From Xiphias gladius (Eukaryota; Chordata; Actinopteri; Istiophoriformes; Xiphiidae), in contig NC_053417.1 in NCBI RefSeq assembly GCF_016859285.1, positions 22,219,706-22,283,705 of the forward strand: a stretch of 64,000 nt of DNA, given 5' to 3'. The notes below the pieces were generated by a model. It was not told where the DNA came from. It did no database searches and saw nothing but the letters and a program-made list of their open reading frames with translations. Below, piece after piece: positions 9,405 to 63,799 of this stretch. Made by a program: the position numbers and the translations under genes. Positions within the stretch are counted from its first letter, which is position 1. Each line of letters opens with the position of its first letter.

Positions 9405-10493
9405 CTGAAGGTTTCCTTTGGTATTAGGCACCACGTAAGCATCAGGTTCTTTTAAGTCCTGTTAGATGCGAGGTGGGGCCTACATGGATTAGACTTGTCT
9501 TTCCAGAACATCCCACAGATACTCGACTGGATTGAGAGATCTGGGGAATTTGGGGGCCAAGTCAACACCTTGAGCTCTTGTCATGTTACTCAAACCATTC
9601 CTGAACAATTTTTGCAGTCTGGCAGGGCGCCTCATCCTGCTGCCCTTACCGTCGCCAGGAAGGGGGCGTACATGGTCAGCAACAATGTTTAGGTAGGTAG
9701 TACGTCGCAAAGTAACATCCACACGAATGCCAGGACCCGAGGTTTCCCATCAGAACATTGCCCAGAGCATCACGCTGCCTCCACCAGTTTGCCCTCTTCC
9801 CATAGTGCATCCTGGTGCCATCTCTTCCCCAGGTAAACGACGCACATGCATGCAAACAGTCCGCATAATGTAAATGAAAACGTGATTCATCAGACCAGGC
9901 AACCTTCTTCCATTGCTCCATGGTCCTGTTCTGACACTCACATGCCCACTGTGGTTGCTTTCGGCGATCGACGGGTCAGCGTGGCCACTCTGACCGGTCT
10001 GTGGCTACACAGCCCCCATACGCAGCAAGCTGCGATGCACAGTGTGTTCAGACAGCTTTCTATCATAGCTTGAGGTTTTCAGAAATTTGTGCTAAATCGC
10101 TCCTCTGTGGGATTGGACCACACGGGCCAGCCTTTGCTCCCCATGCACATCAGTGAGCGTTGGGCGCCCATGACCCTGTTGCCAGTTCACTGGTTGTCCG
10201 TCCTTGGACCACTTTTGGAAGGTACTGGCCACTGCATACTGGGAACACCTCATAAGACCCACCCTTTTGGAGATGCTCTGACCCAGTCTTCTAGCCATCA
10301 CAATTCTGCCCTTTTCAGAGTCGCCTAGCTCTGTAAACCTGCCCATTTTTCCAGCTTCCAACACATCAAGCATTGACTGTCTAATATATGCTTCCTAATA
10401 TATCCCACCCATTGGCAGGTGCTATTGTAACGAGATAATCAATGTTATTCACTTCACCTGTCAGTGGTTTTAAATTTAAGGCTCATCGGTGTA
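9405..10493 (-). mobile_element. Degenerate Tc1-like transposon with transposase remnants
   Basis: Minus-strand translation gives Tc1 transposase pieces: an N-terminal helix-turn-helix part (MGRFTELGDSEKGRIVMARR, then a GRP..T linker motif), a middle part (HEWNKVAW-like: MEQWKKVAWSDESRFHLHY, holding the first catalytic Asp of the DD(34)E triad) and a C-terminal part (FPRSLNPVEYLWDVLERQV, around the catalytic Glu). They fall in different frames and are interrupted, so the copy is dead. The right end GGCTCATCGGTGTA matches the terminal repeat of a widespread teleost Tc1 family. I cannot see the left terminal repeat, so that end looks truncated. Confidence 0.85.
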
Positions 10494-11067: not shown

Positions 11068-12713
11068 TTACAAGTCAGCACCTTCGCATCTTCGCTCATT
11101 GATCCAGTCCCCAGGGTTGACGTCCATCTGCAGCATCTTCATCACCCACTTGTCCCTCCGCGCGCCGTCGATGAACTCGTCCAGCGAGAGCTCCCCTAAG
11201 GGACGAGGGACAGTTATTCTCTGGGCTTATTTCACTGTACATCTCTTCATTCCTGAGTTCATAATTCTGATAGGAAGAGGACCGTTGTAGAGCTGATGCC
11301 CACCTTCCCCTTCAATATACACAAAACACAATGAACTCGTGCACTTTTACATTAACACCCCACAAGGCCATTACAGCGGCCCCTTTAGATCATCCGTGAA
11401 GCATTTTAAACTGTCAGAAAACTCTTACAATCACTTACCATCTCCATTTTCATCCACCAGCTCAAATATCCGGTCAACCACTTGGTCTGGGGTCAGCAGA
11501 TTGCATTCTTCATCCAGCTCTCCGTGGCAGGCTTTCTTCAGCCGATAAATAGACTGAGAGTGAGGGGAAAAGGATGTTACAATTAATCTTGCTTTGACTG
11601 CTGTTCATCAAAGCCCACTGATTTTTCTTGAAATATTCCTTAAAATGTCTTGAATGCTTAAAATACTAAATATTACCTCCACAATTTCAAGAAGCTCTGT
11701 TTTATCAATGCATCCGCTTCCGTCCTTATCATACATTTTGAATGTCCATTTAAGCTTATGTTCCAGTTTACCCCTAAGGACTAAGTTCAAAGCTGCCACG
11801 TACTCCAGAAAATCAATGGTGTTGTCCTGTGAACATGGGGTGGAAAGAGTTCAAATGTTATGAAGGGACACTTTGACATAATTTATGAGCAAAAATATTT
11901 CTTTACTTTTTGACAGGCAAAATGTCTGTAATGTAATATAAGAGATAGAATTGAAGGAGTCTTCTTACTAGAAACACCAATCAAAAATATGTGGGGCTGC
12001 AACTAATAATTATTTTCATTGTTGATTAATCTTCCAACTATTCTCTTGATTAATCAATTAATTATTGCATGTCAGAAATGACTTATATAATTATTATAAT
12101 TATATTATTTCCCAGGGCCCAAGTTGAAGTATTCAAATTGCTTGTTAACATATTCAGATTATTTTAATAGAAGACTTACGAAAACCAGCAAATATTTACA
12201 TTTAAGAAGATGGAACCTGTAATTTAAGGGTTTTTTTCTTTTTTGGCGTCTTGATCATAGAATGAATTACACAATTAATCAACTCCCAGAATTGATACAC
12301 ATTAATTTTCTGTCTGCTGACTAATCAGGTAATCAACTCATTGTTTCAGCTCTAAAAACATGTACTCAATAATGGGCATTAGCAGCAATTGTCACAAAGG
12401 CTTCCAATCGACAAATCTGTTACTGTGATAAATGTAGTGTCAATACTAAAATAAGACAAATGACTAGATACAACTCTTGTATTTCCACACAACAGAAGTT
12501 TGTACTTACGCCATTCTTGTCAAAAGCTCGAAACATGTTTTCAATGTAATCTGCGGCCTCCTTGTTGTTAGTGACGCCAAAAAAACTCTTGAACTCGTGC
12601 ATGAAGAGAGTTCCACTTGGGCATTCCACAACAAATTTTTTGTACCATTCCTGCAGCTCTGCCACATCAATTTCCTTGTCTGGGTCACTTTCCTCACTTA
12701 GGCGCTGACCCAT
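11068..12713 (-). CDS. guca1b: guca1b: guanylate cyclase activating protein 2 (GCAP2)
   Basis: Four exons on the minus strand, 12510-12713, 11677-11826, 11439-11553 and 11068-11195, join in phase to 198 residues, the usual GCAP length. The protein starts [20 protein letters not shown]; Gly2 fits N-myristoylation. EF-hand 1 is degenerate ([17 protein letters not shown], with the Cys-Pro typical of GCAPs). EF2 ([12 protein letters not shown]), EF3 ([12 protein letters not shown]) and EF4 (DENGDGELSLDE) keep calcium-binding residues. The stretch [15 protein letters not shown] is closest to GCAP2 rather than GCAP1 or GCAP3. In rods and cones GCAPs activate retinal guanylate cyclase when calcium falls, restoring cGMP after light. 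Intron 1 holds a hAT-like MITE. No breaks are visible. Confidence 0.93.
11994..12353. mobile_element. hAT-like MITE in guca1b intron 1
   Basis: Begins GGGGCTGCAACTAATAATTA and ends CTCATTGTTTCAGCTCT, with several ATTAATC/GATTAAT motifs inside. These are the ends and interior of a non-coding element very common in teleost genomes. Related copies occur at 34.3-34.8 kb and 37.1-37.4 kb in this window. It encodes nothing. Confidence 0.65.
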
Positions 12714-14498
12714 TGTGGAAGTAATCCCTCCAACACCCTACAGACTGGAATTACTTGTCACATTACGTGAAAACCATATGACTTGGTTAACTCTTTTTAA
12801 ACTTCCCTCTACATTATAAAATCTATAAATCTCAGTCCTCAGTTACGAGCCAGTTGCTGCAACTAACTTGTGCAAATTGGCAAAAAGCAAAATGATCAAA
12901 TGGTCCTAACAAGCTGAATTGTTATTAGGCTCTCTATTGCGGCGAATCCCCTCTGAAGTGAAGATGAGACACAGATTGTCAACGATCACATGATAAGGGA
13001 TTAGATATGGACACTTGTCAGAATCAATTAGTTTGCAGATAGATCATGAAAGGACTTCCTTGTGCCCCTGCTTCTACCTATCCTCACCAAAGAATAGTGC
13101 ATGAACTGAATGTTTGCTTTTCAGAAACACACTCACTTATAATAAATTTCAAGTACCTCAATGGTATGAGGTACTTGAAGTTAATAACAATGTAATTATA
13201 CTGTATGATTAAACAAGCACATACATTTCCAGAGGAGGGAACTCTGCCAATTTTGTATAGTAAATGTCAGTTTGCTATTCACAGAGGTTCACAGTCTGAG
13301 AGGGTCTAATGAAAACATAATATTAGCTACATTATGGTAATTGCATGGGTTCCAGCGTTTTTAAGAGCTTGACCGATACTCTGTACTAAAATTAAGGACA
13401 CGTCAGGTACTGCTGCTTAGATTTTTTTTCAATTCTTTTAAAATTTGTCTCTTACAAGTTCCCAAATTGTATGGAAGTGGAATGGTAACTTGTTGATGTA
13501 CTCCTTTAAGTAGTCTTCTCTGGTACAGGAAGCTCCTGACCAGTCTGATGAATCACACAGGCCAAATGTTAAGTTATCACAGAAAGGTCTGACCTTCAGG
13601 TGCCAGGTTATCTAACCTGATTACTGTTTACATGCCTGCTTCAGTCTCACTGATATATTACACCTTAGACATTTAGAGGGCAAAATATTTTTGATAAATG
13701 GGAGGAAACATTTTCTAGCAAGCCTTTGGCAATGTTAAAATATCAGCAATGGAGTTGTCAGTGGCAATTTGGAAAATACTACATGTTTTCTTGGAATAAC
13801 AGTGTCATTGTTAGTGGTAACATAGCCATTGTTTACAGGTTAAAGCTTGGCTTGGCCCAATACATTCCTGGCCCACGATATTTGCTGACAGCAGGGACAG
13901 TGATAATCATGGCTTAGAAGTGTCAAGGCCATCTGAACAGTCACTGGATGTTATCCTCACACGATTACAATGATTGACACCTTCTGTTCTTACACAAGAG
14001 ACATTTTAAATCTCACCCATATATCCAATTATGTTACACAGGTTTGTTCTCCTGTACCCAGGGCAGGTAAAAACATACAACCCACCATATTTGTAACCAT
14101 GGCTGGTGATTTTCACTCCTGTGTCATCTCTGTATCACTTTTACGTATTCTACTGTTTTGTAAAAATAAAAAACAATCTTTCAAAAACAAGACTACCAAC
14201 AAGCTTGCTTACATGCTAATACGTAGAATGTGGTGAATGTTAGCCCGCTAACGTTAGACACTAAATGGCTAATGTTGAATTGTTAATGTGAGCTGGCTAC
14301 TGTACATGAAAACAAATCTAAGCCATTAGCGAAGGTGAGCTGAAAAGTAAATTTTTTTCCTAGAGTCCGACCTCATGGCTAAAAAGTAATTCCCAGAATT
14401 CACTGTCCCTATATTGTTCTACAGCTATGAAACAAAACTGGATTTAAAGAACTCCCCCCTTTATATTAATTGAGCATACTAAACTTTAAGTTTTAGCA
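12714..14498. other. Intergenic between ppp4r2 and guca1b
   Basis: AT-rich sequence with no coding exon recognised. A 12-bp perfect inverted repeat lies at 13148-13179 and a GCTAACGTTAG motif, common in teleost DNA, at about 14250. Confidence 0.5.
13148..13179. repeat. Perfect 12-bp inverted repeat
   Basis: TTCAAGTACCTC and GAGGTACTTGAA are separated by 8 bases (AATGGTAT). It is isolated, between the guca1b promoter side and the ppp4r2 3' end. Its role is unknown. Confidence 0.7.
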
Positions 14499-15465: not shown

Positions 15466-18400
15466 TTATTCATGTTCCCCAGGTTCTATTGCAGTCTCTA
15501 TGCTGTTTGAATTGTCAGCATCGCCCTCTGTTGTCAAGTCAGGTGAACTGCTAGAAGAGGAGGGGACCTGTTTTTCACTAGGCAGGCCCTCTCCATCACC
15601 GATGTCGCTGCTGCTCTCCCCATTGTCCTGCTCAAAGCTTGTACTCTTCTCTGACGGAGGAGGCGGCTCAGGTTGGTCCACAACGTTGTCATTCTTCTGA
15701 CTGTGGACATCTCCCGTCTCAGAGGAGTCTCCTTCCCTTTCAGATGTTTCTGTCTGTGTGCTACTGGGCTCTGAGAAGCAAAGTGGACAACATCTTACTG
15801 TTAGATTCTGAGTAACAAACAGTCTGCGATTGTTAACTAATCAATTCAAGGCTATCTTTATTTGGAGGTATCTGAAGCTGGATGTGTGAATTGAAACATC
15901 ACTGTTGTAAAAAGAGGATAGCATCTGAGACCGGCATGTCTGTTACGAGGGAAATAATTCTGTAAAAGCTACATACACGATTTTGCTGTGGTAGTACAAT
16001 ATTACATCGAGAGATATCTAAAGCAATTAAAGAGCTAAAGATACATTTAAAAGTCAGAGTAAAAGTTGGTTTAAAGCTGGATTTATAATTGACACAAGGG
16101 GTTTTAATGGGAGTCCCATCATTTTTGGCAGGTTTTGATTTATACTTGACAGTTGGATTTCACCTGTTGATATAATTACTGCGCCACTTTCTTTTACTTT
16201 GTGATACAGAACGACGCCGGGATATACACATACTCATCAGAAACTTGTAGTAGAGAAAAGCAGCCCATGCTGACCAATCACAGTTCTTGCAGTTCCCATG
16301 GGGTATCTCCGTCTCTGCTGTAGCCCCGATGTGTACATTTTGAGGAGGCACACTTCAGCAGTGTAGCCTATGCCATAACCAAGGAGCCAATGCACGTAAC
16401 TGCTTTAAGGTATGGTATAATTCCTTAATGAAACTTAGAGACCTCCATCACTTTTACTGTGTACATCAAAGATGCCCTCAAGCAGAGACTTTTCAAAGTG
16501 AGCCCCTTTATCTACAAATGTATAATTTACCGTGTCGAGATAACAAAGACACTCAAAGACAAGGAATTCTTGGAGAGTGATCAAAAATGCAGTGGGATGC
16601 AGCCTGCAGGAGGCTTCGTTGACAATCTCTCGTCCCACATTTGGGTGTGGCTTTTTTCGAAATAGGTATAAACACTAGTTTGTTTCAAGCATACTAAACC
16701 ATTAAACCTCAGTCAGACTAGTTTACTACAGAGTTATATTTCATTGTATGCCCAATAAATGTAGCACTGCTGAAATACTAAATCAGAGTATTGTGCATCT
16801 ATTCTAATACCCACATGTTGTTTACTTGTTTCATATTCACTTTGTAATGCAGAAGAGTAACAATACCAGCCAAAAGATATGTGCCGGAAAGATCTACGTT
16901 GACTGTGCAGCTCCCTCTGTATAACATTTGTGAAAGGGTGCACCTAAACTACAACGTAGTTGTCTGTCCATAACGACACCACACGTACTGTACCCACAGT
17001 GTTTGTACTGCAACACTTTGACATTCAACACATTCACATTCATCAGCCACAGTGATCATGAGTTCACACTTACCATGGTCTTCTGAATTAGAAGGTGTGT
17101 CACAAGATGTTCCACTTTTGTAGTCTTGACCACAAGAGTCTTCTGAAGACTCCGGTGTCTCTGACAAGCTATCTGACCCTTTATGACAAGATGACTCCTT
17201 TTCTTCACTTTCTGTTTCATCCGCTTCCTTTTCATCAAACTTGAGCCTCTTGACCTCTTGCTTGTCGGCATCAGAATCCTCCTCCTCCTCCTCTTCCTCC
17301 TCGGGGTGTTTGTTTTTTATACCGCTGTTTGGTGTTATTTCACCTTCTGATTGCGTGGAATCACTGCAGTAATGACAGAGATACAGGGAAATGGTTCATC
17401 AACATTTAAACCAAAGTGTAGCTGATTGGTTTTCTGTTAAAGATGGGGTCTTGAGAAGATCTGCTTATGGCGGAAATGACATTTCTAGTCAGTAGTTTTT
17501 ACTTAAATAGTTCTTTTTTTTTAACTATTGAGGAGACTAAATCAGTACATCACACACTCTAGAAAACTTTCTGTATCTCACCCTAAAAGCCACCATTGTA
17601 GAACATGTGCAAAGTGCCACATTTATATACTATTACCTGATATGGTGCTCCTCAACCTCTTCGGCGATTGGCTCTGGCTCTTTGCTGACGGGACAGTCAG
17701 GGAGCCCGTTGGTGGAAAGCGAAGTAGACAATGACAGCTTTGGTCTGTTGAGTGGTTTTGGTGTGCTTGGTCCATTTACATTTCGACTGCAAGAGAAGCA
17801 AATTACCATTTCTTATGAAAGTCATATCACAAAGCACCCTTTCAGCAGAACTACTAAGACCAAAACTGACTGGCAAGACAGATCTGTCCTTACTATACAC
17901 TGGTTGTCTTCGGGTTTTTTGCTCTAAATGAATTCAACATTTCAACTCCTGCGTATGAGGTAGTTTCAATTTGGTGAAGTCAATCACTGACTGACCCTGA
18001 CACATGTATGTTGCTCCCACCTGTCTGAATATAGAGAAGAGTTACCAGGAAACATCACTCCATTCATTCTGTTTACACTGGATGCCCCATTTTTCCTTTG
18101 AAAGAAGTAGAAAGGCACAAAAAACAACTGGCATAAGCAAGTTCAAGGGAGCTGTCAATGTGCATGAGAAGCAGAAATATTATAGCCACCAGAGCAAGGG
18201 GAGAATACGTTTAACAGCTTTTAAGATATACTTACTCTGATGTGGGATAGACACAGCTGACCACCATTACATTCTGCAATACATAAACAGTAATATATAT
18301 ATTTTAGAATTCATTTTAAAGCCATGGAAAGTACATTAAATCAGCATTGATAAATATCACTTATCTTGAGCCATAACACTTTGTATTAATTTGTGTGGAC

Positions 18401-21400
18401 TTTAACACAAAGTAGTCTAGTGTAATGCTCACCTTCTCCAAACCCCTGAGAAACTTGTCTGTCCCGGTGTAGTTACGCTTGGGGTCCATAAGGAGTTCAC
18501 ACAGACGCTGGATGGTGAATGGGATTCTAGAAAAGTCATCGAGAAATATATTTAGGATTAGTCTCAAATAGCCATTTCACAGCCAGGTACAACACTGTTT
18601 TTGAAAATTTGCCAAAGCTGGCAGCACCGGAGCTGAATGAGAAAAAAAAACAAACTCACCAGTCCAGACAGATCTTTGACTACTTTGATAATACACTATA
18701 ATACCCTAATATACCTATATCAATTTTTTTTTTTTAACTATTGAGGAGACTCAATCAGTACATCACACACTCTAGAAAACTTTCTGTATCTCACCCTAAA
18801 AGCCACCATTGTAGAACATGTGCAAAGTGCCACATTTATATACTATTACCTGATATGGTGCTCCTCAACCTCTTCGGCGATTGGCTCTGGCTCTTTGCTG
18901 ACGGGACAGTCAGGGAGCCCGTTGGTGGAAAGCGAAGTAGACAATGACAGCTTTGGTCTGTTGAGTGGTTTTGGTGTGCTTGGTCCATTTACATTTCGAC
19001 TGCAAGAGAAGCAAATTACCATTTCTTATGAAAGTCATATCACAAAGCACCCTTTCAGCAGAACTACTAAGACCAAAACTGACTGGCAAGACAGATCTGT
19101 CCTTACTATACACTGGTTGTCTTCGGGTTTTTTGCTCTAAATGAATTCAACATTTCAACTCCTGCGTATGAGGTAGTTTCAATTTGGTGAAGTCAATCAC
19201 TGACTGACCCTGACACATGTATGTTGCTCCCACCTGTCTGAATATAGAGAAGAGTTACCAGGAAACATCACTCCATTCATTCTGTTTACACTGGATGCCC
19301 CATTTTTCCTTTGAAAGAAGTAGAAAGGCACAAAAAACAACTGGCATAAGCAAGTTCAAGGGAGCTGTCAATGTGCATGAGAAGCAGAAATATTATAGCC
19401 ACCAGAGCAAGGGGAGAATACGTTTAACAGCTTTTAAGATATACTTACTCTGATGTGGGATAGACACAGCTGACCACCATTACATTCTGCAATACATAAA
19501 CAGTAATATATATTTTAGAATTCATTTTAAAGCCATGGAAAGTACATTAAATCAGCATTGATAGATATCACTTATCTTGAGCCATAACACTTTGTATTAA
19601 TTTGTGTGGACTTTAACACAAAGTAGTCTAGTGTAATGCTCACCTTCTCCAAACCCCTGAGAAACTTGTCTGTCCCGGTGTAGTTACGCTTGGGGTCCAT
19701 AAGGAGTTCACACAGACGCTGGATGGTGAATGGGATTCTAGAAAAGTCATCGAGAAATATATTTAGGATTAGTCTCAAATAGCCATTTCACAGCCAGGTA
19801 CAACACTGTTTTTGAAAATTTGCCAAAGCTGGCAGCACCGGAGCTGAATGAGAAAAAAAACAAACTCACCAGTCCAGACAGATCTATGACTACTTTGATA
19901 ATACACTATAATACCCTAATATACCTATATCAATTTTTTTTTTTTTAACATTTAATGCACATCTAAATATCTCTCTTTGTGGCTATGTTTTCATTCAGTT
20001 GATAACATGCACGAAGTACCCTAATAATGTAGTGGGCAGGCATCGATGGATGCATGTAACTGAATTGCTATATTATTTAGTTTCATATATGGAGTTGTGA
20101 GGGAGGATTTGTTTGCAATTTGAAAAGTGGCTTATTATCAGCTTTACTCACCCATTGTAACCATCAACTATTTTTAAGATCCTCTTCTTCATCTCTTCAA
20201 AGGGAACATACTCTACATTGGGATTATGTGGTCCTCTCTGCTCTGGTGTTGAAGCGTGGAAATCATCCATGACTTTTTCCAACTTAAACATGAAGTAAGT
20301 TTTGAACTGGGACCACGGGATCCTAGAAGATATCGGAAATGCAAGTCTGCATGTCATCCACTCGAAAGAATGAGAAGTTTTGGAACACGGTTTTAACAAA
20401 ATCCTTGATAAGAGTGACAAAATGTTCACCAAGAAGATTTCATTGGCAGGAAAAATTCGAAGGAGTCTCAGTGTTTTAAGCTATGTGACAGCCTCTAGTT
20501 GCTACTCACAGCGGCTGCCCTGTCTTGGCAACATGACACAGGAATTGCTCTAGTACGGGACAGGTCTCTTTCTTCCCTTTCTTCTCAAAATCTGTAAATA
20601 CGCAGATGAAAAAAAAAAAGAAAAATTAGCTTTTTGGTAACAAATCTGACCCGAATCTAACCAAACAAATGTTTGTACTTGCAAAACCATTAACTTAAAG
20701 TTGGAGGTTTTTTAAAATGGCTCAGAAAAATGTTAAACCCTGTTTAGTTTAAGGCTACTTCTGGCACATTAATTCTACATTGGCAATGATTAAATCATTG
20801 TAAAGTGTCACAGATCGGCCGCAAAAAACGGATGTAAGCATTAACCAATAATTGTAGCTAGAAGTAGTAACAGTGTTTGCCAAAGGTCTGACAGTGCTAA
20901 ATGAAACTCCAAAAAAAAAAAAAAAAAAACGGTACCGAACAGCATCACAATTCGCTGAAGAAAAAAAAAACAATCCCACTTTTAGTTTAGAGACAGCCTG
21001 CAATTGGGAAAGTTTCTGCTTGTTCACCAAATTAAATTTAGGACTTTCTAAGACCTTTTTAATTGAAGAGAGAATATTCTATAGCATAGAGCATAGCATA
21101 CAATGACCACTTGGGACAATAAGGCCTACAATTATTTATTAAGTACATTAATTTATTTACATTTGCATAACATTTTTGTCAGTATTTTCCAGCTGTATAT
21201 AACAATAATTCCTAGTAATATAATTAATCCGTTAATGTGACATGGATCCATGTAGGGATTACTGAACAGGCACAGACCCTGGGGTCCTTGGGTCAGAGCC
21301 TCTGTATGAAGTGACTTGTAATATTTCTTGTTTTAAAGAGCACAGAGCTCAATTAAAAGGCTACTAAATCAGGCAAAACTATCCGAAAGAGACACAGAAC

Positions 21401-22596
21401 GACCACACAGGGAAGCAAACCAACCACCAAGAGGCATGAAATGACTTCAAAGAGACACAAAATGACTAAAAAGACACGTAAAACAACCACAAATATGCTC
21501 AAAACCGAAAGGAGACACGGAACGACCACCAAGAGACACAAAAATGATTACAAAAAATCTGCATAATGACTTGAATGAAAAATAAAATGACAACAATTGA
21601 CGCGGCTGTGGTTCCTATGAGGGAAGGGGGACCTTTTACTTGTCTCTGCCCAAGGACCGGTTGTCCCATAATCTATCCATGCCTAGACCCAGATAGGAGG
21701 CAGCAAATTGGTGACTTGATTAACCAGTTTTTTTTTAAAAAATTAAAAAAGTAATTGATTTGAGAATTTATGTTTTTGTTAAGATCAACCAAATCTTATC
21801 CATTATGAGTCGATGAGCTTCCCTGCAACTATCATCCTACAGCCAAAAGTTAATTAATGTTACTTTCTACGGCAAGACCAAAAAATAAATAAATAAATAA
21901 AAAGCCCAAAATGAATTTTAAGACTGTAATACCTTCTACGGGCTTTTATGAGTTAACTGAATTGAATGCCTTTTAAGACATTTCAAGACCTGCAGGTGCC
22001 CTGAATCGGATACAGACAATTCTTATAACTAACTAACAACTACCTATCGCAGGCGAGAAAAAAAAGCACACTAAAGACTTTTATAATGAGGGTTAAGACT
22101 TTTTGATACCTTCTAAGTCCCCTTTTTTCGGCAACTGAATTCAAAGCTTTTTAAGACTTTTCAAGCGCTGCAGATACCCTGTCAAACACCAATTTCAGTT
22201 GACTACATGGAAAGTTATCGTGAAAGTTAGTAAGTTAGCTTGTTGTTGTGACGTTAACCCGCTAGCTGTTTACTTAGTCGCATCTGTGTCAGTGAGAGAA
22301 TAAATTCATCAAAAGAGAAAACTACGACCAACTTCTTTCTTGCAGAGAACAACATTAAGCTAGCTAACGTTAGGCCAGGCAGAAAATGAGTTCAGTGTCC
22401 CCTGGTGCCTCTTCTAAGCGCTAGTCGATGTTGGAAGGCTAAGTTGCGGTAACGTACGTAACGTAGTTAGCAAACATTACAGGTTTTACCGAGAGCATCA
22501 AAACAAATGTAAAACTCAATAGCTAATGATGAATCACTTATTTGGATAACTGTGAATATTGCCTTGAAACGCTTCCAATAACGCGTCGATGTCCAT
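15466..22596 (-). CDS. ppp4r2: ppp4r2: protein phosphatase 4 regulatory subunit 2, with tandemly duplicated exons
   Basis: Minus-strand exons: 22563-22596, 20510-20591, 20152-20322, then a three-exon set present twice (19644-19737, 19449-19486, 18850-18999 and again 18433-18526, 18236-18273, 17637-17786), then 17074-17363 and 15466-15770. With one set the product is 387 residues; with both it is 481, still in frame. Recognisable PPP4R2 segments are [78 protein letters not shown] and [12 protein letters not shown], followed by an acidic Glu-rich tail. PPP4R2 forms a trimer with the PP4 catalytic subunit and PPP4R3, acting in DNA-repair dephosphorylation (gamma-H2AX, RPA2) and centrosome/snRNP work. 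The ATG exon ends CAAG|GCAATA, so intron 1 appears to be GC-AG. I cannot tell which exon set is spliced. Confidence 0.93.
17523..18735. repeat. Tandem duplication, copy 1 (three ppp4r2 exons)
   Basis: A unit of about 1213 bases that starts and ends in T-runs and is repeated directly at 18736-19946. It contains ppp4r2 exons 18433-18526, 18236-18273 and 17637-17786. By eye the copies differ by three substitutions (near 17540, 18352 and 18685), a TA deletion and single-base changes in A/T runs, so they are over 99% identical. Exons are identical in both copies. Confidence 0.95.
18736..19946. repeat. Tandem duplication, copy 2 (three ppp4r2 exons)
   Basis: Direct repeat of the preceding unit, carrying exons 19644-19737, 19449-19486 and 18850-18999. 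Both junctions fall in poly-T tracts, as expected if misalignment of those tracts caused the duplication. A false duplication in the assembly is the alternative. Confidence 0.95.
21355..21560. repeat. Degenerate minisatellite in ppp4r2 intron 1
   Basis: Imperfect repeats built on AAGAGACACAAAATGAC / ACGACCACCAAGAGACAC, a pattern familiar from teleost minisatellites. The copies have drifted apart. Confidence 0.6.
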
Positions 22597-23218: not shown

Positions 23219-26189
23219 ATGGCAGTTCCAGTAGCTGCATTGCAACTGAGCACATCATCCAGCCCGGTTCTGCTGGAGCACAACGTCCACATCAGCGACA
23301 GAGATTTGGGAAGGATTTCAAGTAACAGTGAAAACGACACTCTGCCTTTGCATTCTCCGTGGACCTTCTGGCTTGATAGGTGAGACGTTGCCTCGGTTCG
23401 TCGTTTCCTCCATCTTTATGTCACCAATCTTCAGTCACTGACAAGTAGGTGAACTCTTTGTAGCTGACCTTTCAGTGGGAACAAAGGCAGGAGCGGACGA
23501 ATTCGCCGGGCTGGGTTTAAAGTAAGACACCGCGACCCAGATAACAGTGTTTAATAGTGTTTGACAGCGACACGGGAGTTGTCTGTCATAATAAATAACA
23601 GAGAAAACAACGAAAACTGCCTGTTAATGGTGCTGATGGAGCTTTTCTACCAACTTGTTTCCTCGTCGACCTAAATACCCAAGTCCTTTACTTAGTGGGG
23701 TCTTAAAATAAACAGAAGTACCTAATTATGACTAACTGGCTAAATATAATAACTCGACTTGATTTCAGATAAGTTCAGTTTCAGCCTCCTCCTTAGCCTT
23801 TACTTATACTTTTTATGAGCACAGATGGTATTGTTAAAAAACAAACAAACAAACAAACAAAACAAAACAAAAACTTGTCGAGTCACTGCTCATGTCTCTG
23901 TTGCCAGAGGTTTAGAAAATCATTATTTATTCTGTTATTTCAACTACAGCGGCTCAAACTTTCCGTCATTACACACAAACTTCCCGGTTTAAAAAATCAG
24001 ACCTTTGCATAACACTGATTTCAAAAAATGACTGTGAACTAATCACAGCAGAGTTGAACAGAAGAACAGGGTTTGTATAAATCAGAGGGTGTTGTTTTCA
24101 AATGGGGTCAGTGTTGTTTACTGTTTACTGGCTAATTTGTCATCTGACCCCCTACCCCCCAACCCCCACCTTCCAACCTGTCTGCTCAGAGGATCCTCTC
24201 CTCTCTCAAACATGTCTCAGTAATGTAGCAGCTTAAAGAAATGTATCTAGAACATGTCAAGTGAGAGAAGCTGAGATCTTTACAGGAGGGAAATTTGTAA
24301 AAGAAGCAAATAAAATAATTGAAATTTCCTTAAATTCCTTCATATGTTGTTTGTTGTTTTTGCCAGATCTCTACCAGGAACAACGGCTGCTGAATGTGAG
24401 TCAAACTTGAAGAAAATCTACACTGTGGAGACTGTCCAGGTAAAAATGCTTTACAGTTGGAGTTGAGCAATCACACATTTCAGTGGCCGACTGCCTTATT
24501 TCCACTGAAATCCAGGTTGTGTGCTAAGATGTTTATCCTCACGCAGCTGCTGGAGTTGTATCTTTTTTTTTTTTTTTTTTTCTCCCAAATGCACCAAGGT
24601 CACAAACTAACATCGTGTCTGAAGCTTTGAGTAACACTGAACACTGAGACACTGAATGCTTGGTGTTCCGCTGATGTCTATGTACCTGAAAGTTAACAGA
24701 GTGTGTAGGATTTAGAAGAAGCACTAACGCCAGTAGCACTTTTACATGATGTGTACACAGGCCATCTACATTTTACACCGCAATCAGCCTGAGCATTTTC
24801 AAGCTGTTTTGAGTGTATGCTTGTTTAACCATTATTTTTTTGGGTTGTTTTTTTTTTTTTTCCCCCAATGTTCTGTCAACATGATGTGTGACGTTATGTC
24901 ATCATGTGATATAACTTACCAAGACAGAGTTTAGAGAGCTCCTGGCCATGTATTAAGACAAGGCTGTTGATCAACATGTTAATCTGTTTAATTACTAATG
25001 ACCTAATTAGCACGCAAGGTTATTTTTAATCTGTTACAGTAATTATGACAGGATGTCGGAGAGCTCAAGGACCCTGTTATGAATCCCTAACCGCGACTGT
25101 GTTGGGTAAGATTTCCATAAATGAGGGGGTTTTTGTGTGGTTAAGAGCAATGAGGAAAAGACCTTTGGCCGTTGTTTTCTGCACCACGACAAATGTGAAA
25201 AATTAACAAAGCCGGCCGTCCGTACCCCCTGTGCCAGTAAGTGGTTCAGTGAAATAACTTGTTTCCTCTGTTCACCTGGGCACTGGAGTAGAACTTTTGG
25301 AGAGTTTACAACAACATACCCGGTGTCTCCAGCTTACCACTGAGATGTAGCTATCATCTGATGAGAGGAGAAAGGAAACCACTCTGGTGAGTTTAGCTTG
25401 GAGATGAGTGTGCAGGCACATATTGTTTAAGGCTATTTAAAATGTGTAATGTTGCCTACTGGCTTGCTTACAGGGAAGAAGAAAGCAATGCTAAAGGCGG
25501 TGTTTGGAAAATGAAAGTACCGAAAGAGTGCACTGTAAGTGATATAACACAAATTAAATATTTATTATGTGCTACTTACATATTAATCATCTGCTGCTTT
25601 CATGACTTTTTAACAAATTTGTCTCATATTTACAGTCTGTTGTATGGAAGGAGTTGCTGTTGGCTACTATTGGAGAACAGTTCAGTGATTATTGTGCATC
25701 AGGTAAATTTCTTGATTGATATATGTGACAATACTTTGGCTTAAATTCTAGCAAATAAATTATCACTTTTTTTTTTTTTTTTTTTTAATTAAAATGGCAT
25801 CGGTATAATATTTGCACAATACTGTAGGTGTGAAATGCATTGAACTCATCCTCTGTTGCTGTTCTTGCAGACGATGAAGTGGTCGGTGTCAGTGTCAGTG
25901 TAAGAGACAGAGAAGATGTCGTTCAGGTCTGGAATGGAAATGCTTCTTGTGCTAACGAGTCAAACATCTTAGGAAGGATCTATGAGCTTCTTCCGCAAAT
26001 ACCTTTTAAGGCAGTGTTTTATAAACGTGAGTATTTGCTCTGTAAATTAACAATGATACGGTGTAAAATGGATTGGCAATAACACCATAGAACGATAATA
26101 AAAAGTAACGTATGTAGTTGTTTTTGTTTGCTTATATTTCAGCACATGAGGAGCACCACGCTTTTGAAGGAGGGCGATCAAGACATTAG
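23219..26189 (+). CDS. eif4e3: eif4e3: eukaryotic translation initiation factor 4E type 3
   Basis: Seven exons join in phase to 219 residues: 23219-23379, 24367-24439, 25292-25386, 25474-25534, 25636-25702, 25871-26026 and 26143-26189. The ATG sits in AACAATGG and exon 1 ends WTFWLD(R) at a GTGAGA donor. Cap-binding core segments are clear: [64 protein letters not shown] and [18 protein letters not shown]. The first cap-stacking Trp of canonical eIF4E is replaced by Cys (about residue 64), which defines class III eIF4E, while the second (PLWEEE) is kept. Class III members bind the 5' cap unconventionally and modulate translation in the cytoplasm. The protein ends [11 protein letters not shown]. 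It is close to human EIF4E3 in all but the N-terminus. Confidence 0.95.
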
Positions 26190-40000: not shown

Positions 40001-43000
40001 TATTAATATCACTTGACTTTGTGGTTGCCCAGTGATAGCAGAAAGTACCTCTGCCTGTAAGGCCCCTAAAATGAAGGCAAAGCTGTTTGTGTGTCACATT
40101 TTGTGTGATTTCTACTGGCCCTGTACTTTTTCGGTTATCTCATCAAGCTATAATTGGTATTGGTAGTAGGAAAGGAATGTACTGACGGATGTACTGTCAT
40201 TCGTTCTGTCACAGCTGACAGCTCAGCAGATTGCCATCCAGCAGCAGCTCCTTCAGATGCAGCAGCAACATCTCCTCAACCTACAGAGGCAGGGCCTGCT
40301 GTCTGTCCTTCCCACCAGCCCCAACACGGCTCCAGGTATGCTGTCTTAAAGGTGTCACTGCATTACTTTGGCATTTTGATATGTCGGGGAAATACTTTCA
40401 CATACAGTGGTTGGTGTTCACTAGTGTCCTGTTTCAATTTGGGTCAGTGTTTCTAAGTAAACACTGCAAATGTGTGTGTGCAATTTCAGGCTGTGAGAAC
40501 GGTAGCATCCTTTCGGCTAGTGGAGACACCAGAGAGTCTTCCAGTCATCTATCTACCACCAATGGTCATCACACTCTCCTGAAGAGGAAAGAAAGGTGCT
40601 TTACAAATGTATTCATAGGAAATTGAAACATTTATTTACCTATTTATTTTATTTGAAAAAGTATACTGTCCTGTCCCAAGTTTAGCTTGAGCAGTACCTA
40701 CGTGCTGACTCTGGGATGCATCATTAATGCTTGACTGTTGTATTTGTTGCAGTGGGTCATTGGATGAAAACTCACAAAATAGCCATCCTCTGTATGGAAA
40801 TGGCATGTGTAAATGGCCTGGCTGTGAGACTGTCTTTGGAGACTTTCAGGCATTTCTCAAGTGAGTAGTGAAACTTTGCACACCTCTAAAGCTGGTGTAA
40901 TGGTTGTTAACATCTATCAGGATGTGCAGAATGATTAAAATGGCTGCTTGAAGTGTTATTTCCTCCTACTTACTACATTGTATGTCTTATTTTTTGTGGG
41001 GTGGATCTGTTTTTTTTAAGTATTAAAATATTATTAAAAATTGTTTTTCAAGTTGAAATGAAATGAATCTTGAAGTGTAATTATTTAGTTTATTTTGATA
41101 CTTGCAGGAGAGCCTTTTAGTAATTGATTGTATTTGAGCATTTTTCGCTCTTAACCACAGCTGCTGCTTCCACAACAAATGGTTTCCCTAAAGCATGGCA
41201 TGATTTTTCTATCTGCAGACATTTGAACAGTGAACATACACTGGATGACAAGAGTACAGCACAGTGTCGTGTGCAGATGCAAGTGGTTCAGCAGTTGGAA
41301 CTGCAGGTATGCATTTGGATTATTTCTTTTAGCTGAACTTTTTATATTTCTTTTTTTTAAATCACACAAAAGGGACAAATAAATCTTTCATATACTAACA
41401 GCAGTTTACTTTTACAAATATATCTTAACCAATGCTTGATGGAGTGGTGTATCCAGTCCTTTTCTTAAAACAACTGAAAAAGAAAAAGAAGAGTTTTCTA
41501 AAAACTCAAGTGAATGTCTAAATGTTTGCAGTGTTGGTGTGTTTTCACACCAGCCCTGGAAACAGAGGTGGTGTCTTCAGATAATTGCACTTCTCAGGAT
41601 TCCAGAAGAGAAGCAATTCCCACACTGAATGTCAATTCGTCATTTCACACAAGCCGTGAATTCACTAACTCTCGACTTCTATTTCGGTCCTCTTGTCTAA
41701 CACAGTTGAAGAAGGACAAAGAACGACTGCAAGCTATGATGGCTCATCTCAAGTCCTCCGAACCGAAAACCGCAGCACAGCCTGTAAGTACCTGTCAGGC
41801 CTGTTTCCTTCAATTAAAATAAATATTGTTTTGTGTGTAGTTAAACTGACGTTGTCCTGACTTAACTACTTTGTTTTTTCAGGTGAATCTTGTGTCTAAT
41901 GTATCCTTCTCCCAGGCAACATTGCCCAAAGGCCCTCCTCCTATGAGCCTGTCTCAGAGTGCCACAGCACCATCCACACCCCTGACGCCGCTCTCTGAAT
42001 CCCCTTCAGTCTTTACTCCCAATAGCATGTTCACTGGAACACCTGTACGGAGGCGGTATAGCCGCTCTGTGAGCCAAGGTAACGGTGAGATCATGAAGAA
42101 CAACTTAATTAATTGATTTTTTTTTTTTTTTTGTAAATGTATTGCTGGTTTGAGCTGAAACATACTTCTGCTAAGATACGCATAAACATAATTTCATAGA
42201 TACTCAAAGAAGGGGCTTACTTACTCATTGATAATTATTTAAATCAAATTGTATATTAGTTTTTTCATAATTTGAAATGTTTCTTCTTTGTTTCAAGTCC
42301 ATTCTATATATGTTTATGTATAAATAATGCTGGTTAATGTCTTTCTACAGATATAATTGATAATAAGGAGTTCTACTTGAGCACAGAAGTTAGACCCCCA
42401 TTTACATATGCCTCTCTCATAAGACAGGTAATGTGTTCTCTCCCTCGTTGTACACGGCCACAAAAATACTAAAACACTGCTGGAAATATGAATCCACATT
42501 TTTGCACGACAATGTTGGCCTTCCAAACAGAAATGAAGCAGATCCACGTCTTTTTATTGTTTCCAGTAAGTCTCACAAAGTCTTCATCTCTTTCAGGCAA
42601 TATTTGAATCACCCCGCAATCAGCTGACATTAAATGAAATCTACAACTGGTTCACAAGAAATTTCGCATATTTCAGGCGCAACGCAGCTACTTGGAAGGT
42701 ACTCACTCTGTCGCATATTAATTGTCATTGGATAGTCATATATAAAACAGGCAAAGTGTAGAAAACACTTGGTCATATTTACATTTGGTTTTAATGTCAC
42801 TAGATTAATGCAAATTCAGTATTTCAGGCGTGTACAGCTAATTTAATTCTTTCCTTTCATCTTCTCCTAGAATGCTGTCAGACATAATCTCAGCCTCCAT
42901 AAATGCTTTGTACGTCTGGAGAACGTGAAGGGAGCTGTGTGGACGGTAGATGAGATAGAGTTCCACAGAAGAAGGCCCCAGAAGACTGCTGGTAATGGGT

Positions 43001-44789
43001 ATGTGTACCTTGGACAGGAACCCTGTGTGTTTTCAGATGTTACCAGAAGTGACATGCCTCACAATATTTGACCTTGTAACTCAACCTCCTAAGTACACGC
43101 AGTATTTACTGTAAGCAAGTCTTTGAGTTTCAAAGGCTGGAAGTTTGCTATGAAGATAATAAAATATGGGATGTTTGTACGGGGGAGTCCATTCATTCAT
43201 TCATTCATTCATTCATTCATTCATTCATTCATTCATTCAGCCTTTATTTATAGACATTGGTCCAATTATTGCATTTCACTCTCTTTTGCACGGGCCCCAG
43301 TGTACACAGGACAATAAAAGCAAAAGCAAAAACATTAGACAAACATTAAAATTAATGAAATGATTACGGGGATAAAGAAGAGCCAGCATTTAATAAAATT
43401 TGAACATAGCAACAAGGATAAAGGCTGAGTTTATTGTAAAGATTTACAGTACACTTCACTCAGATCTTGCGGGTCCATAAATAGTGACGGGATCATGGAA
43501 GAAATCAGGTGATCCAATTTGAGAAACTGTTGCTGTTTGCACTAGCCTACAAGCCAAACTTAGACTTCACAGAACTTCGACCACTCCCCCCTTTACAAAC
43601 CACTATTAGCAATACATCAAAAATGTCATGTGGTGTCCCAGGTCCTTTAGGAATTGATATGTAATAAAATATAACTTGCTAATGTATTTGTGTACTAACA
43701 GATCTCTGCTGAAGAACCCTCAGAGCCGTCAGAGCTTAGCTGGGTCTGCTCCTCAGGTAAGACAACATCTATTTTTTTAATATGTTGAATTACAAATAAA
43801 TATTAATTGATTAATTATTTAATTAAAATAAAATATAATATAAAGTCAGGCTATTGAAGCGGGCAGACAAAGGTGAAAGGTGGCAGCAACGTGTCAGATG
43901 GCACTGCGCCCCTGCTACGGTGCCATCTGATATGTGTTGATGCGGTATTATAAACATGAAAACTGAGGATGTTACCTTTTTCAGAGTGGTGGTCTAGACG
44001 GCAACAACTCTCTCTACAACCCCGCCTCTATGGGAAGCATCCCACTGCACTCCCTCCCTCATGTCCTCCAAGAGCAGATGAATGGAGCCCTTGCTAATGG
44101 ATCTGGATACCAAAGTGACAGCAGTGCAACACAGTCCCCTCCTCAAGCTTTGTAAGCGTCACCTCCAGAGATGTGTTCCCTGACCTCTATAGTGTATTTG
44201 ACTCACTTGTGATTTAATATGTAATTATGTGATCAGAAATTTTCACCACTGTTTTCTTCATTTTTTTTTTTTTTCCTGCACGTTTATCAAACCAGCATTA
44301 AAGAGGAGCAGGAGGACGAGGAGATATGTGACAATTATCCCTATGAATCTCCGGAGAGCACAGACGAGCATGGTCACAGCCCAGAGATGAACCAAGATGA
44401 AGACAACGGCAGCCCAGAGAGGTACAGCCTTCATCTCGATCGCGTGCCTTCTCTCTGACTATGAGGTCCAGGTTCTCCAATGCAAGGCCCCCTCACTCAC
44501 AGCTGATGTGATTTTTGTATTCCAAAAAAACAACAGCTTCATCTACATAACCAAACCACTCTCCTCTTGGGGATTTTTTTTTTTTTTCATATTTATCTGC
44601 CTTTCTTATTTTTTGTTCTTAATCTAGTTCTTAATTCTTTCTGTACAATAGCGTGATATCACAAAAACGCATTTGTGAAACTGTCTGTTCATGATTTTTT
44701 TCTTATTTTATATATCTGTACTCAAAAGGACCATGATGAGCAGAGAAGCCAAGGGAAAGGGAACATTGATAGTTAGCACTTCACAGTGA
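34006..44789 (+). CDS. foxp1: foxp1-like forkhead box P transcriptional repressor
   Basis: Sixteen coding exons, all in phase, give 590 residues: 34006-34131, 38956-39093, 39189-39278, 40215-40335, 40490-40595, 40753-40860, 41219-41306, 41706-41783, 41883-42084, 42351-42427, 42597-42698, 42871-42998, 43702-43756, 43985-44151, 44296-44421 and 44729-44789. In order: a Gln-rich part ([18 protein letters not shown]), a C2H2 finger ([11 protein letters not shown]...HLNSEH, about 210-235), a dimerising leucine zipper ([20 protein letters not shown]), a CtBP-type motif PVNLV, and a forkhead from [14 protein letters not shown] to [11 protein letters not shown] (about 365-440) with the recognition helix [15 protein letters not shown]. 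It is closer to FOXP1 than FOXP4, and the neighbours agree. The N-terminus lacks the long poly-Gln block. The last exon is uncertain: reading through the 44421 donor would end 12 codons later with RVPSL. Two donors 6 bases apart end exon 41883-42084. Confidence 0.9.
34276..34836. mobile_element. hAT-like MITE in a foxp1 intron
   Basis: Starts AGAGCTGGAACAGTTAGG and ends near CCTAGTTGCAGCTTT, with CGATTAATTG and GATTAATCGAAATAAT inside. It is the same family as the element at 11994-12353, but longer and diverged. Confidence 0.55.
37071..37422. mobile_element. hAT-like MITE in a foxp1 intron
   Basis: Starts AGAGCTACACCGATTAATCG and ends CCTTTTCACAGCTTT, with the internal ATTAATCGGC / AGCAGATTAATTAATAATG pattern of the family. 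About 350 bases, non-coding. A similar fragment follows near 37790-37860. Confidence 0.6.
43191..43239. repeat. (ATTC)n microsatellite in a foxp1 intron
   Basis: Twelve uninterrupted ATTC units in the intron between exons 42871-42998 and 43702-43756. Confidence 0.95.
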
Positions 44790-46067: not shown

Positions 46068-47267
46068 ATGACAACTCCTTCCGAGCCTCCCGTGAATGAT
46101 GAGGATTGTGTGAGGCTTAAGAAACTAGGGGACCATGTTTCTGATGGTAGGCTGTTCAGTTTACTCCATGTCTGACTGAATACTTAATGTGGCCCATGCC
46201 GAGTGTTAGTGGGAGAATACAGGTATATATTTCACACGGTATATATTTTCCTCAGAACCTATTCAGCCCCGGAAACTAGATTCAAATAGAAGCTTGCTAA
46301 TCAATACGCTCCTTGCTGAAGTATTATTGAGCAAGCCTCCATTATATACTCCATGTCTCACCTCCCTGACAGACTTCATGTTAATGGTGCTCTGAATAAT
46401 TAAAACTGCCTCACAGAAGATTTGAGTGAGTAGCTTGTCTAATAGAGACTGGACTGGGTGTCGAACCAGCCCTGAATTTTTATACCACCAGTAATTAACT
46501 GAGAGTTAAATAATTTCCCCTTTTTTCTTGCATCATCCTACCAAAGGAAACACCCCCAAGCCAGTGACTGGCAGTCCGTCTAGCACGATGACGGGCAAGT
46601 TCAGTGGGGTACGCAGACTGAGCACCATCTCGGAGCAAGAGCCCGACAAGCTGGACACAGGTCCCGGTTCCCGTGAGCCCCTGGGTGGCGGCGAGTGGGG
46701 TGGTTCCGTCTTCTCTGTGTGTTCTGACAAGTTTAAGAACAGCAGCAGTCATTTCTCATCTGATGATTCATATCAGCCTGGCACCGGAGGTACTGTTGAA
46801 CTCCTCCGAGGTAGAATAGTTGATGCAATTAAACAGAAAACCCCTGAAAGGGTAGCGCTGCTCATAACAGCACTGTAATTCTGATGCTGATTTGTGGTTA
46901 GAGGTGCACTAGATGACACTTTCAGAGGGTTGAATTTCATACTAAGCAATTAACGTCCTCGTCTGATCTTCTCCTCTTCTATTCCACCCTGCCGTCACCA
47001 CCAGATGACTGTGCGGGACTTCTGCTCGCTTGTCTGCATTGCCGTTTCCACGAGTTAATGGTCCTGCTACCGGATACATGCGAGAGGGCTGTGAGCCGCT
47101 GTTTTCCCTCGTCCAGATACGTCATGGCGACCAGCGAGGGGGACCAGCAGGGGAAGGACTGCTTCAATTACAAGCTGGAGCTGGACTGTAATTTCTGTGG
47201 CTCCTGTCAGGACGCGGGGGAACTTCTAGAGCTGGCCATGGAGATATCAGAGATGTGCTATCGCTGA
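46068..47267 (+). CDS. mdfic2: mdfic2-like: MyoD family inhibitor (I-mfa) domain protein
   Basis: Three exons, 46068-46146, 46547-46789 and 47005-47267, join to 194 residues. The first encodes MTTPSEPPVNDEDC; the second contains the family stretch VRRLSTISEQEPDK; the third is the C-terminal I-mfa-like domain, from DDCAGLLLACLHCRF through CNFCGSCQD to the end ELLELAMEISEMCYR. I-mfa proteins bind and retain transcription factors such as MyoD family members and LEF/TCF partners. The position between foxp1 and mitf matches human MDFIC2 and argues against MDFI, which neighbours FOXP4 and TFEB. The domain has only about ten cysteines, far fewer than MDFI or MDFIC. The start is the first in-frame ATG before a consensus donor. 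Confidence 0.82.
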
Positions 47268-48606: not shown

Positions 48607-51600
48607 ATGTGGGAGACCGAGAAATACAGGGAGCATCTTTCAAATAACAACTCCAGCCATTCACGGCAAACTGAGTTTAATCTGGTCCAAGTGAAAGGAA
48701 CATGGATCAGACAATCCGAGAAGGGTCAACTGGCGGAAGGAAAGTTATCCGAGGCTAAAATGTAAGTACTGACTGTGGAGGCGTTCATTATTCTACATTT
48801 AAATGATTATTTGACAAATGATTCTGTTTTTGTAATATTACTGGGTTTTATATGTACAATGGCAAAATTAATGAATTTAATCTGGTTGTTACACAAATTA
48901 AATAGCATATACATCAACATAATGTCATGCAACCGTAATAATAAGTATCTTTCTTTCTTAAAATAAGTTTGCATTCATAACTTGTTCACATTCATTGGTT
49001 ACACTGTGTGTTCATTATACTGTATGCTCCTTGGTTATATATTCATAAGTATGCGCCGTGGACTGGGGGAGGTGAAATACCTTTCTATTTTAGGCTGAGG
49101 TCAGTCATGTGTGAAACATGTACAGCAGTGGTGGAAGAAATGATTCAGATCCTATACTTAAAGGCCCTGAAAATATACATATTTTCTCAGTCTCAAGTCT
49201 TAGTATGAATGATCGGATCCCACATGGAAAAACACAATTTTCTGCACAAAACGTTCAGTTTTAGTGTTTTCAAATGAGTGATTTCTTTTTTTTTTTCTTT
49301 TCTTTTCTTTTTTCCCTCTGTGCTCTTCTCACCGGTTTGAAGTTGCCAGGGCTCATTTAGAAAAAAAAACTACTTAATGTGCACGAATCAGGATTCAGCA
49401 ACATTTGAATTAGACTCTGGTGTTTGGTGTCTCTCTCGAATCTGACTACAAACCACACTCACACAGTCCTGGTCAAGCAGACCAGCTGAGTTTTTGAGTA
49501 ATAAAGACTCCTGCATTGAAACTTTTAGTCCAGTAAATGCACCAAAGCATTAGCAACAAAATATACTTAAAGAAAGTATATTTATTTACATTACTAAGTT
49601 CATTACTCACAAAACAAATTAGGTGAATCCTCGAGGTCGAAAAATGTGTATTGAATGCATTTCCTTCCCCATAAAATATCGGCAAAGCCGATATTCCAAG
49701 TATTTTAAGTCCCGCATTGTTTACATGCATGTTTACGAGCCTGCAGTTTTCTCCTTCACTGCATACTGCCGGGTAGTTTAATCTATAGCAGTGCACTAAG
49801 TTGATCATATTTTTTGTATGTAAAAGCAACACTTAACTATAGCTGTTAAAAAAGTAAAGTAAAAGTACCTCAAAATTTTATCAAGTACACAACTTGAGTA
49901 AATGTACTTAGTTACTTTCCACCACTGATGTGCTGTGAGTTACAAGCAGTGTGTGATAACATTTTAGCAGGTATTTCTTTAAGTCCCTCAACGACAAAAC
50001 ACTGACCTTTGAACTGGAACTAATAGCCCATTAATTTTTATTCTTTGGTTGCTTTATTGTGAATTATCTTCAGCCATGAGAACAAGTCAGAACACGGAGT
50101 TTCCTGGACTGTGGTCAGCCCCATCGTATTCACCTACAGAGTCATTCAGTGCAAAAACGTATTGGATCCCAGCAATGACGCGCTGCTCTGGGGTCATTTA
50201 GGAGAAGAAGAGTCTAAAGGTACCATAAGTAACTCCAAACCTGTGAGGCGTTTTGTTGTCATTGATGAAACTGTCCATCATCTGTATGGCTCTCAGGTTA
50301 TTCAGTACTTTGAGGCCAGAGAAGTCGTGTACAAGATTCTCCCTCTGCCCACCACCGAAGAAAACAAGGGTATGGAGTTAGTGACCAAGATCCTGGAGGA
50401 GGTTCATGAGTTTTGCATTGACAGGCGCTCTGAGCCAATCATAGCCATTGGTGGTGGGGTTTGTCTGGATGTGGTGGGTTTGGCGGCATCGCTCTATCGC
50501 CGGAGAACTCCGTACATTCGGGTGCCGACAACTTTACTCTCTTATGTTGATGCCAGTGTGGGGGCAAAAACAGGGGTCAACTTTGCCAGTGGGAAAAACA
50601 AGCTTGGAAGTTATGTCCCACCAGTGGCGACGCTCTTAGATCGCTCATTCTTCCAAACTCTTCCACCACGTCAGATCTCCAATGGGATGGCAGAGATGTT
50701 AAAGGTGCTCGTCACGGCATGATCATTGTTTGAGAGAGTGATTTTTCCTGATGGTCTTGCATGTGGTAGCCCACGAACAACCAAGTGTGTACACCTTAAC
50801 TTCCTGCCAACCATTTTTGAAAGCACAACAACTGTTTTCAGGCTGATTTTCCTGATTTTTAGGCAGACATAGGTGGCTTTTATTGTTGGTAAGTTAGGAA
50901 AATGAATATGCTGAGGACAGAACTGCTTTATTGTGCACGGTAGTTTCATTGCAAGCAGAAATCAACTTTCTTGTTTGTGCATTAGGGCTCAGAAATCGGA
51001 CACCTGACAGCTAGAATGCCTTGCATTAACAAGCTATGTTGCTGAGAAATGGAACTAATGTGAATTTGGTTGAATATTAAGTAGTTAGTATTGTGTGCAC
51101 AAGTTAATCATTTGTGTGAAAAGGGTGTTATCCTGTTCACACAAGTTTAAAAATATCTTTCAGGACTTCGGGAGCTCCTGGATTTACCCACAAGCGCTTG
51201 AACACACCAGCAAGAGAGACAGTCAAAACAGTTTCTTGTTGCAAGTGTATTAACAAGATTTATAAGCTTCAAATCTCTTGAAGCTGATTTTCAAACTACT
51301 GAAATGTCCTCAATTCTTGGCAACAAAGGCTAAATCCAGCTAACCGCATTTGCATATTTCTAAAAACTTATATTAATTGATTTTGAAGTTTTCCCATTAA
51401 CAGTGCAAACTACCACTGTCTTGTTGTTAAGACACCTACAGCAATTTGCACAATCCCAAACGTAAAGTATATAGCAGAAGAGAGCAACAGTAGCTACATG
51501 TCGTGGCAAAAACACTTGTTTGCTAAAGGTCAACTGAGCTGGCTCTTCTCAAGCTACAACTTTGTAAAGGTAGAACTGTTTACTGCCTCACAGCAGCCCT

Positions 51601-57823: not shown

Positions 57824-63799
<5,976 letters not shown>

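Follow-up and report, generated by a model that had tools for sequence, protein, structure and literature searches.

Does the ppp4r2 gene of Xiphias gladius carry a real internal duplication of several coding exons, or were two versions of the same exons laid end to end when the genome was assembled? The question is raised by the window analysed here, a stretch of 64,000 nucleotides (nt) corresponding to positions 22219706-22283705 of one sequence of 30,564,377 bases (NC_053417.1) in the assembly GCF_016859285.1, which comprises 690,834,319 bases in 1298 sequences. In the assembled sequence a unit of 1.21 kilobases (kb) within the minus-strand ppp4r2 gene is present twice in head-to-tail order, the two copies spanning about 17523-18735 and 18736-19946 (positions counted from the first base of the window). 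A real, young intragenic tandem duplication was judged likelier than an artefact, with a probability of roughly 0.62. With about 0.25% divergence between the copies, such a duplication is probably polymorphic or recently fixed; it is probably almost neutral or slightly deleterious and not the source of a new function.

The similarity between the two copies was analysed by comparing the window with itself using blastn (word size 16, low-complexity filter on, E <= 1e-8). The ppp4r2 pair was the sole self-match printed for the 64 kb, covering 1233 columns at 99.27% identity with 4 mismatches and 4 gap openings, and this direct repeat, with an offset of 1210-1213 bases between the copies, is far beyond chance. 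A sequence-only reading had earlier described a near-identical head-to-tail repeat of 1.21 kb at this place, with about three substitutions and a few indels, and the comparison bears this out. Both copies are read from the minus strand; copy A (18736-19946), first in the transcript, ends in the right outer T13 tract, and copy B (17523-18735), second in the transcript, ends in the T12 tract of the junction. The three substitutions within the unit were located at 17539/18752, 18353/19564 and 18676/19886. The differences in length comprise 2 bases in an (AT)n run and 1 base in a poly-A run, and the T tracts measure 9 bases in the left flank, 12 at the junction and 13 in the right flank. Three substitutions in about 1205 bases, a denominator set by hand, correspond to a divergence of 0.25% (95% interval 0.05-0.73%). 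Under assumed substitution rates of 2-8e-9 per site per year, the point estimates would put the age of the copies at about 0.16-0.62 million years. The copies do not differ at all across some 750 bases (17540-18292 against 18753-19504), and the 5 differences flank this run on either side. The chance of such a run with 5 differences at random positions was P = 0.043, calculated post hoc; patchy conversion or chance might account for it, and the hint of gene conversion is too weak for use.

The borders of the repeat read C-T9-AACTATTG at the left outer breakpoint (17514-17525), A-T12-AACTATTG at the junction between the copies (18724-18738) and A-T13-AACATTTA at the right outer breakpoint (19934-19949). 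At all three sites AAC follows the T tract, and the earlier placement of the breakpoints within T tracts is thereby confirmed. Both outer breakpoints have TTTTTTTTTAAC in common, a microhomology of 12 bases. The junction carries the sequence of the right flank before its T tract and that of the left flank after it, and such a hybrid is expected of a single tandem duplication between two T-AAC sites. Of 3000 pairs of 51-base windows drawn at random 2,423 bases apart, 3 had a common string of at least 12 bases. The window has 29 T tracts of at least 9 bases, and AAC follows 4 of them including the three repeat sites (1 of 26 elsewhere). The shared 12 bases fit one microhomology-mediated tandem duplication. 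By this mechanism the ancestral ppp4r2 would have had T-AAC sites in intron 3 and intron 7, about 1.2 kb apart, and a replication or repair event may have switched between them and recopied the stretch once, leaving the hybrid T12-AAC junction. The junction lies inside introns, and the new composite intron of 323 nt between the copies (18527-18849, minus strand) therefore takes its donor from intron 7 and its acceptor from intron 3.

The gene itself looks complete, with nine coding exons on the minus strand when the block is counted once. The single-block coding sequence begins with an ATG at 22596 and has 1239 nt including the stop; its product of 412 residues matched the Pfam family PF09184 (PPP4R2) at 344.5 bits over residues 7-271, that is profile positions 2-282 of 282. 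Coding exons 1 (22563-22596, with the ATG and a GC donor), 2 (20510-20591, 82 nt) and 3 (20152-20322, 171 nt) precede the repeat in the transcript, and coding exons 8 (17074-17363, 290 nt) and 9 (15466-15770, 305 nt with the stop) follow it. Each copy holds four coding exons of 94, 38, 75 and 150 nt, together 357 nt or 119 codons. In copy A these are exon 4 (19644-19737), exon 5 (19449-19486), exon 6 (19234-19308) and exon 7 (18850-18999), and in copy B they lie at 18433-18526, 18236-18273, 18021-18095 and 17637-17786, respectively. All eight block exons have AG/GT borders and all four exon pairs are identical.

The sequence-only reading had counted three exons per copy and 94 additional residues on full splicing. 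Its exons of 94, 38 and 150 nt were found, and its positions 18850-18999 and 18433-18526 were right to the base; the fourth exon, of 75 nt, which sits between the 38- and 150-nt exons, had been overlooked. This exon is supported in both copies by its AG/GT borders and by the PF09184 score, which was 344.5 bits with it and 280.7 bits without it. Its peptide alone, with the border residues (26 amino acids), gave a weak match to profile positions 139-160 (E 0.034; 14.1 bits, under the curated cut-off of 27.4). The version with three exons and 94 residues was rejected because of this fourth exon, and the figure of 94 would hold only if both copies were spliced without it; full splicing adds 119 residues, giving 531 against 412. 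The joined sequence of all eight block exons codes for these 531 residues with zero internal stops and reached 486.6 bits with PF09184 in two stretches. The stretch from the second copy occupies residues 215-333, repeating 96-214, and its entry reads EEHHI-R-IPFTIQ. The duplicated unit starts inside the conserved region of the family, at position 92 of the 282 in the profile, so that a partial domain was copied and not a whole one.

Intron 1 (20592-22562), which lies outside the repeat, apparently starts with GC (GCAATATT) and not GT, which would make it a GC-AG intron provided that exon 1 is correct. At about 21011-22185 it contains an interspersed repeat with at least 55 further matching rows at 65-91% identity, in at least 18 sequences of the set C1-C24; this count came from a 7.3-kb gene query for which the best 40 of 830 candidates were scored.

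The effect of the duplication on the reading frame was analysed from the intron phases, which are 1, 2, 2, 0, 2, 2, 2 and 1 for introns 1 to 8. Introns 3 and 7 are both of phase 2 and the frame is therefore kept, as had been claimed, with or without the 75-nt exon. This is unremarkable, because the two introns have the same phase in 11 of 28 pairs; the in-frame length was rejected as a sign of selection since these 11 pairs would yield the same. The splice-site stretches compared were the same in both copies, which makes inclusion of both blocks the simplest expectation. Default splicing would include all eight block exons and give a protein of 531 residues, in which the first copy would complete the N-terminal PPP4R2 domain and the second stretch of 119 residues would follow. 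The interaction with PP4 would be expected to survive, with some stability lost.

A competing explanation is that the assembly placed the two parental haplotypes, which would differ by about 0.25%, one behind the other and joined them at a T tract; each chromosome would then have one block and the exon gain would be false. This was considered doubtful, although its share of the probability is appreciable. A divergence of about 0.25% would be in keeping with the usual range of heterozygosity in fish, which counts in its favour, and so does the position of the length differences in simple repeats. This class of error is documented, inside genes too (PMC2864568, PMC9516828, in the parts available). 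According to the available part of PMC2864568, most false duplications in four vertebrate assemblies were shorter than 2,000 bp, and their median identity was 98.1%, with few exceeding 99.5%; the ppp4r2 repeat is shorter than 2 kb and its BLAST identity of 99.27% is within that range. Counted by substitutions only, the identity rises to about 99.75%, which speaks against an artefact, but this measure may differ from the one used in PMC2864568 and was given little weight. The accessible text of PMC9516828 documents false exon gains inside genes, in which the copies are most often separated by a gap though a gap is not required, and states that assembly gaps can be wrongly filled. The window contains 0 N bases, also none between the copies, which argues against an artefact as far as such misfilling allows. 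No separate haplotig or third copy was found with a query of 567 bases (18433-18999, a part of the unit) against the 691-Mb assembly; the first pass was not exhaustive, and the 3 candidates, 3 of them scored, all lay inside the repeat. The 7.3-kb gene query for haplotigs of the flanks was likewise not exhaustive, since the repeat in intron 1 swamped it and the best 40 of 830 candidates were scored. Self-BLAST over 263,706 bases, comprising the window and 199,706 sampled bases, printed no other direct repeat of at least 200 bases at 85% or more; it was run on the region of the window and on 10 stretches elsewhere. The sample was fetched as 20 stretches, with 99,706 bases beside the window and 100,000 from sequences C1-C5, the far stretches being compared with themselves, and 5,000 of its bases are a run of N that follows the window immediately. 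That a second near-identical tandem pair was not seen in the 199,706 bases sampled outside the window also speaks against misassembly.

Several points nevertheless weigh against a real duplication. The outside sample of 199,706 bases is a small fraction of the genome, and the window was picked for its repeat. The repeat was read from the assembled sequence, and its presence in the animal is probable rather than proven. Its size of 1.2 kb and identity of 99.27% also fit a haplotype misassembly, the length changes, all in simple repeats, could be sequencing errors, and an assembler joining contig ends by a short T-tract overlap would produce the same hybrid junction. The warning of assembly error given in the sequence-only reading stands, the size and identity being compatible with merged haplotypes. 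Within the preferred reading of a real, young duplication there is also a silent case, regarded as unlikely, in which the second block is normally skipped or the transcripts are degraded and the protein stays unchanged. From exon 3 to exon 8, 36 skipping events were tabulated, 22 in frame and 14 shifted, and 5 of the 22 remove exactly one block's worth (357 nt). By this frame arithmetic, skipping of a whole block would restore the length of 412 residues. Inclusion is however simpler, as the splice-site stretches do not differ and the composite intron of 323 nt is intermediate between intron 7 (273 nt) and intron 3 (414 nt). It was held very improbable that the change is a functional innovation, with a PPP4R2 of 531 residues or a regulated choice of blocks maintained by selection. 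The intact frame and splice-site dinucleotides and the identical coding exons are in its favour. Youth alone explains the identical exons, however, and selection need not be invoked: exons make up 357 of 1201 bases, and all 3 substitutions would miss them with a probability of 0.35. The start of the unit within the domain, and not at its edge, also argues against innovation, as do the results for RNA structure. The composite intron folded no better than its shuffled versions (z 0.50; 69 of 100 shuffles folded at least as well), and no inverted repeats of at least 14 bases with a 10-base exact seed were found in 17364-20151. Mutually exclusive splicing through competing RNA structures was set aside as unsupported on these two results. 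The exclusive use of exons suggested earlier found no support, the exons and the compared splice-site stretches being identical; with identical exon pairs, an exclusive choice of whole blocks would leave the protein unchanged. The other suggestion, a new form of the PP4 regulatory subunit, had neither expression nor comparative evidence behind it, and no support for it was found.

The repeat was compared with known systems, each as described in the available parts of the sources. The duplication of the promoter and exons 1-4 of RYR2, a disease allele (PMC7455073), resembles it in doubling consecutive exons of one gene; the present case differs in concerning ppp4r2 in a fish, in keeping the frame and in having no known phenotype. 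False exon gains and haplotype misassemblies (PMC9516828, PMC2864568) likewise show two nearly identical copies of about 1 kb next to each other in one gene; the difference is that no gap separates the ppp4r2 copies and that no separate haplotig was found with the 567-base query. Mutually exclusive tandem duplicated exons (PMC9741552, PMC9013439) are likewise tandem and in frame. They are mostly ancient and swap homologous regions, while ppp4r2 has four identical exons in each copy and no sign of exclusive choice; diverged copies encoding different proteins, as expected of that class, are absent as the exon pairs are identical. In fish PKR, which has one to three double-stranded RNA-binding domains (PMC2291453), a repeated protein part also varies in number among fish, but there whole domains vary and the ppp4r2 unit begins inside a conserved region.

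Wider searches gave little that bears on the gene. A PDB sequence search returned zero PPP4R2 chains, and the 4 sequences at E up to 1 were weak GPR84 matches, one of them in a fusion. For relatives of the ppp4r2 protein, 43 pattern matches in genome contigs and 4 in viral contigs were obtained and 0 were confirmed. Scans of the window with Rfam (gathering threshold) and for tRNA were empty, and a literature search pairing ppp4r2 with exon duplication found no paper in the collection searched.

Among the other features of the window, a MyoD family inhibitor domain (PF15316, 56.1 bits) at 46917-47264 on the plus strand probably belongs to mdfic2. Between this gene and mitf lie plus-strand frames with 3-dehydroquinate-synthase domains (50063-53000; PF01761, 113.1 bits), with DHQS_C pieces of 18.9 bits (under the cut-off) and 31.5 bits; they probably represent EEVS, a fish gene that serves gadusol synthesis. 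A DUF3371 match (PF11851, 138.7 bits) at 57827-58243 on the minus strand probably marks mitf, DUF3371 being the C-terminal region of MITF/TFE proteins. The genes eif4e3 and foxp1 were presumed in the window on recognition by eye only, and Pfam gave no match for their pieces at 25397-25741 and 41850-42113. On the minus strand, broken frames at 9489-10394 appeared by eye to be a remnant of a Tc1/mariner-type transposase (piece 9492-9749 without a Pfam match), and 11608-12737 appeared to be an EF-hand guanylate cyclase activator (piece 12423-12737 without a Pfam match). A perfect (CATT)12.5 microsatellite is present at 43190-43239 in the foxp1-like region. In Nile tilapia, ppp4r2, eif4e3, foxp1 and mdfic2 occur in overlapping windows of one region, according to the available part of PMC8488396, and the neighbours of ppp4r2 in the window agree with this arrangement.

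The event is of an ordinary kind. If it is an artefact, the annotation gains a false gene model of 531 residues and a false exon gain. There is only a slender chance of a real duplication that is spreading or fixed in the species and whose eight block exons are all used, to make a PPP4R2 of 531 residues that tunes PP4 assembly; this would be a species-specific change in an otherwise well-conserved phosphatase subunit. If the duplication is real, it gives a fresh snapshot of the first step in the growth of an internal protein repeat, with the copies not yet diverged, and the subunit concerned regulates the DNA-repair phosphatase PP4. As the splicing outcomes of whole blocks are in frame, its fate, whether loss, drift or use, would be traceable in populations.

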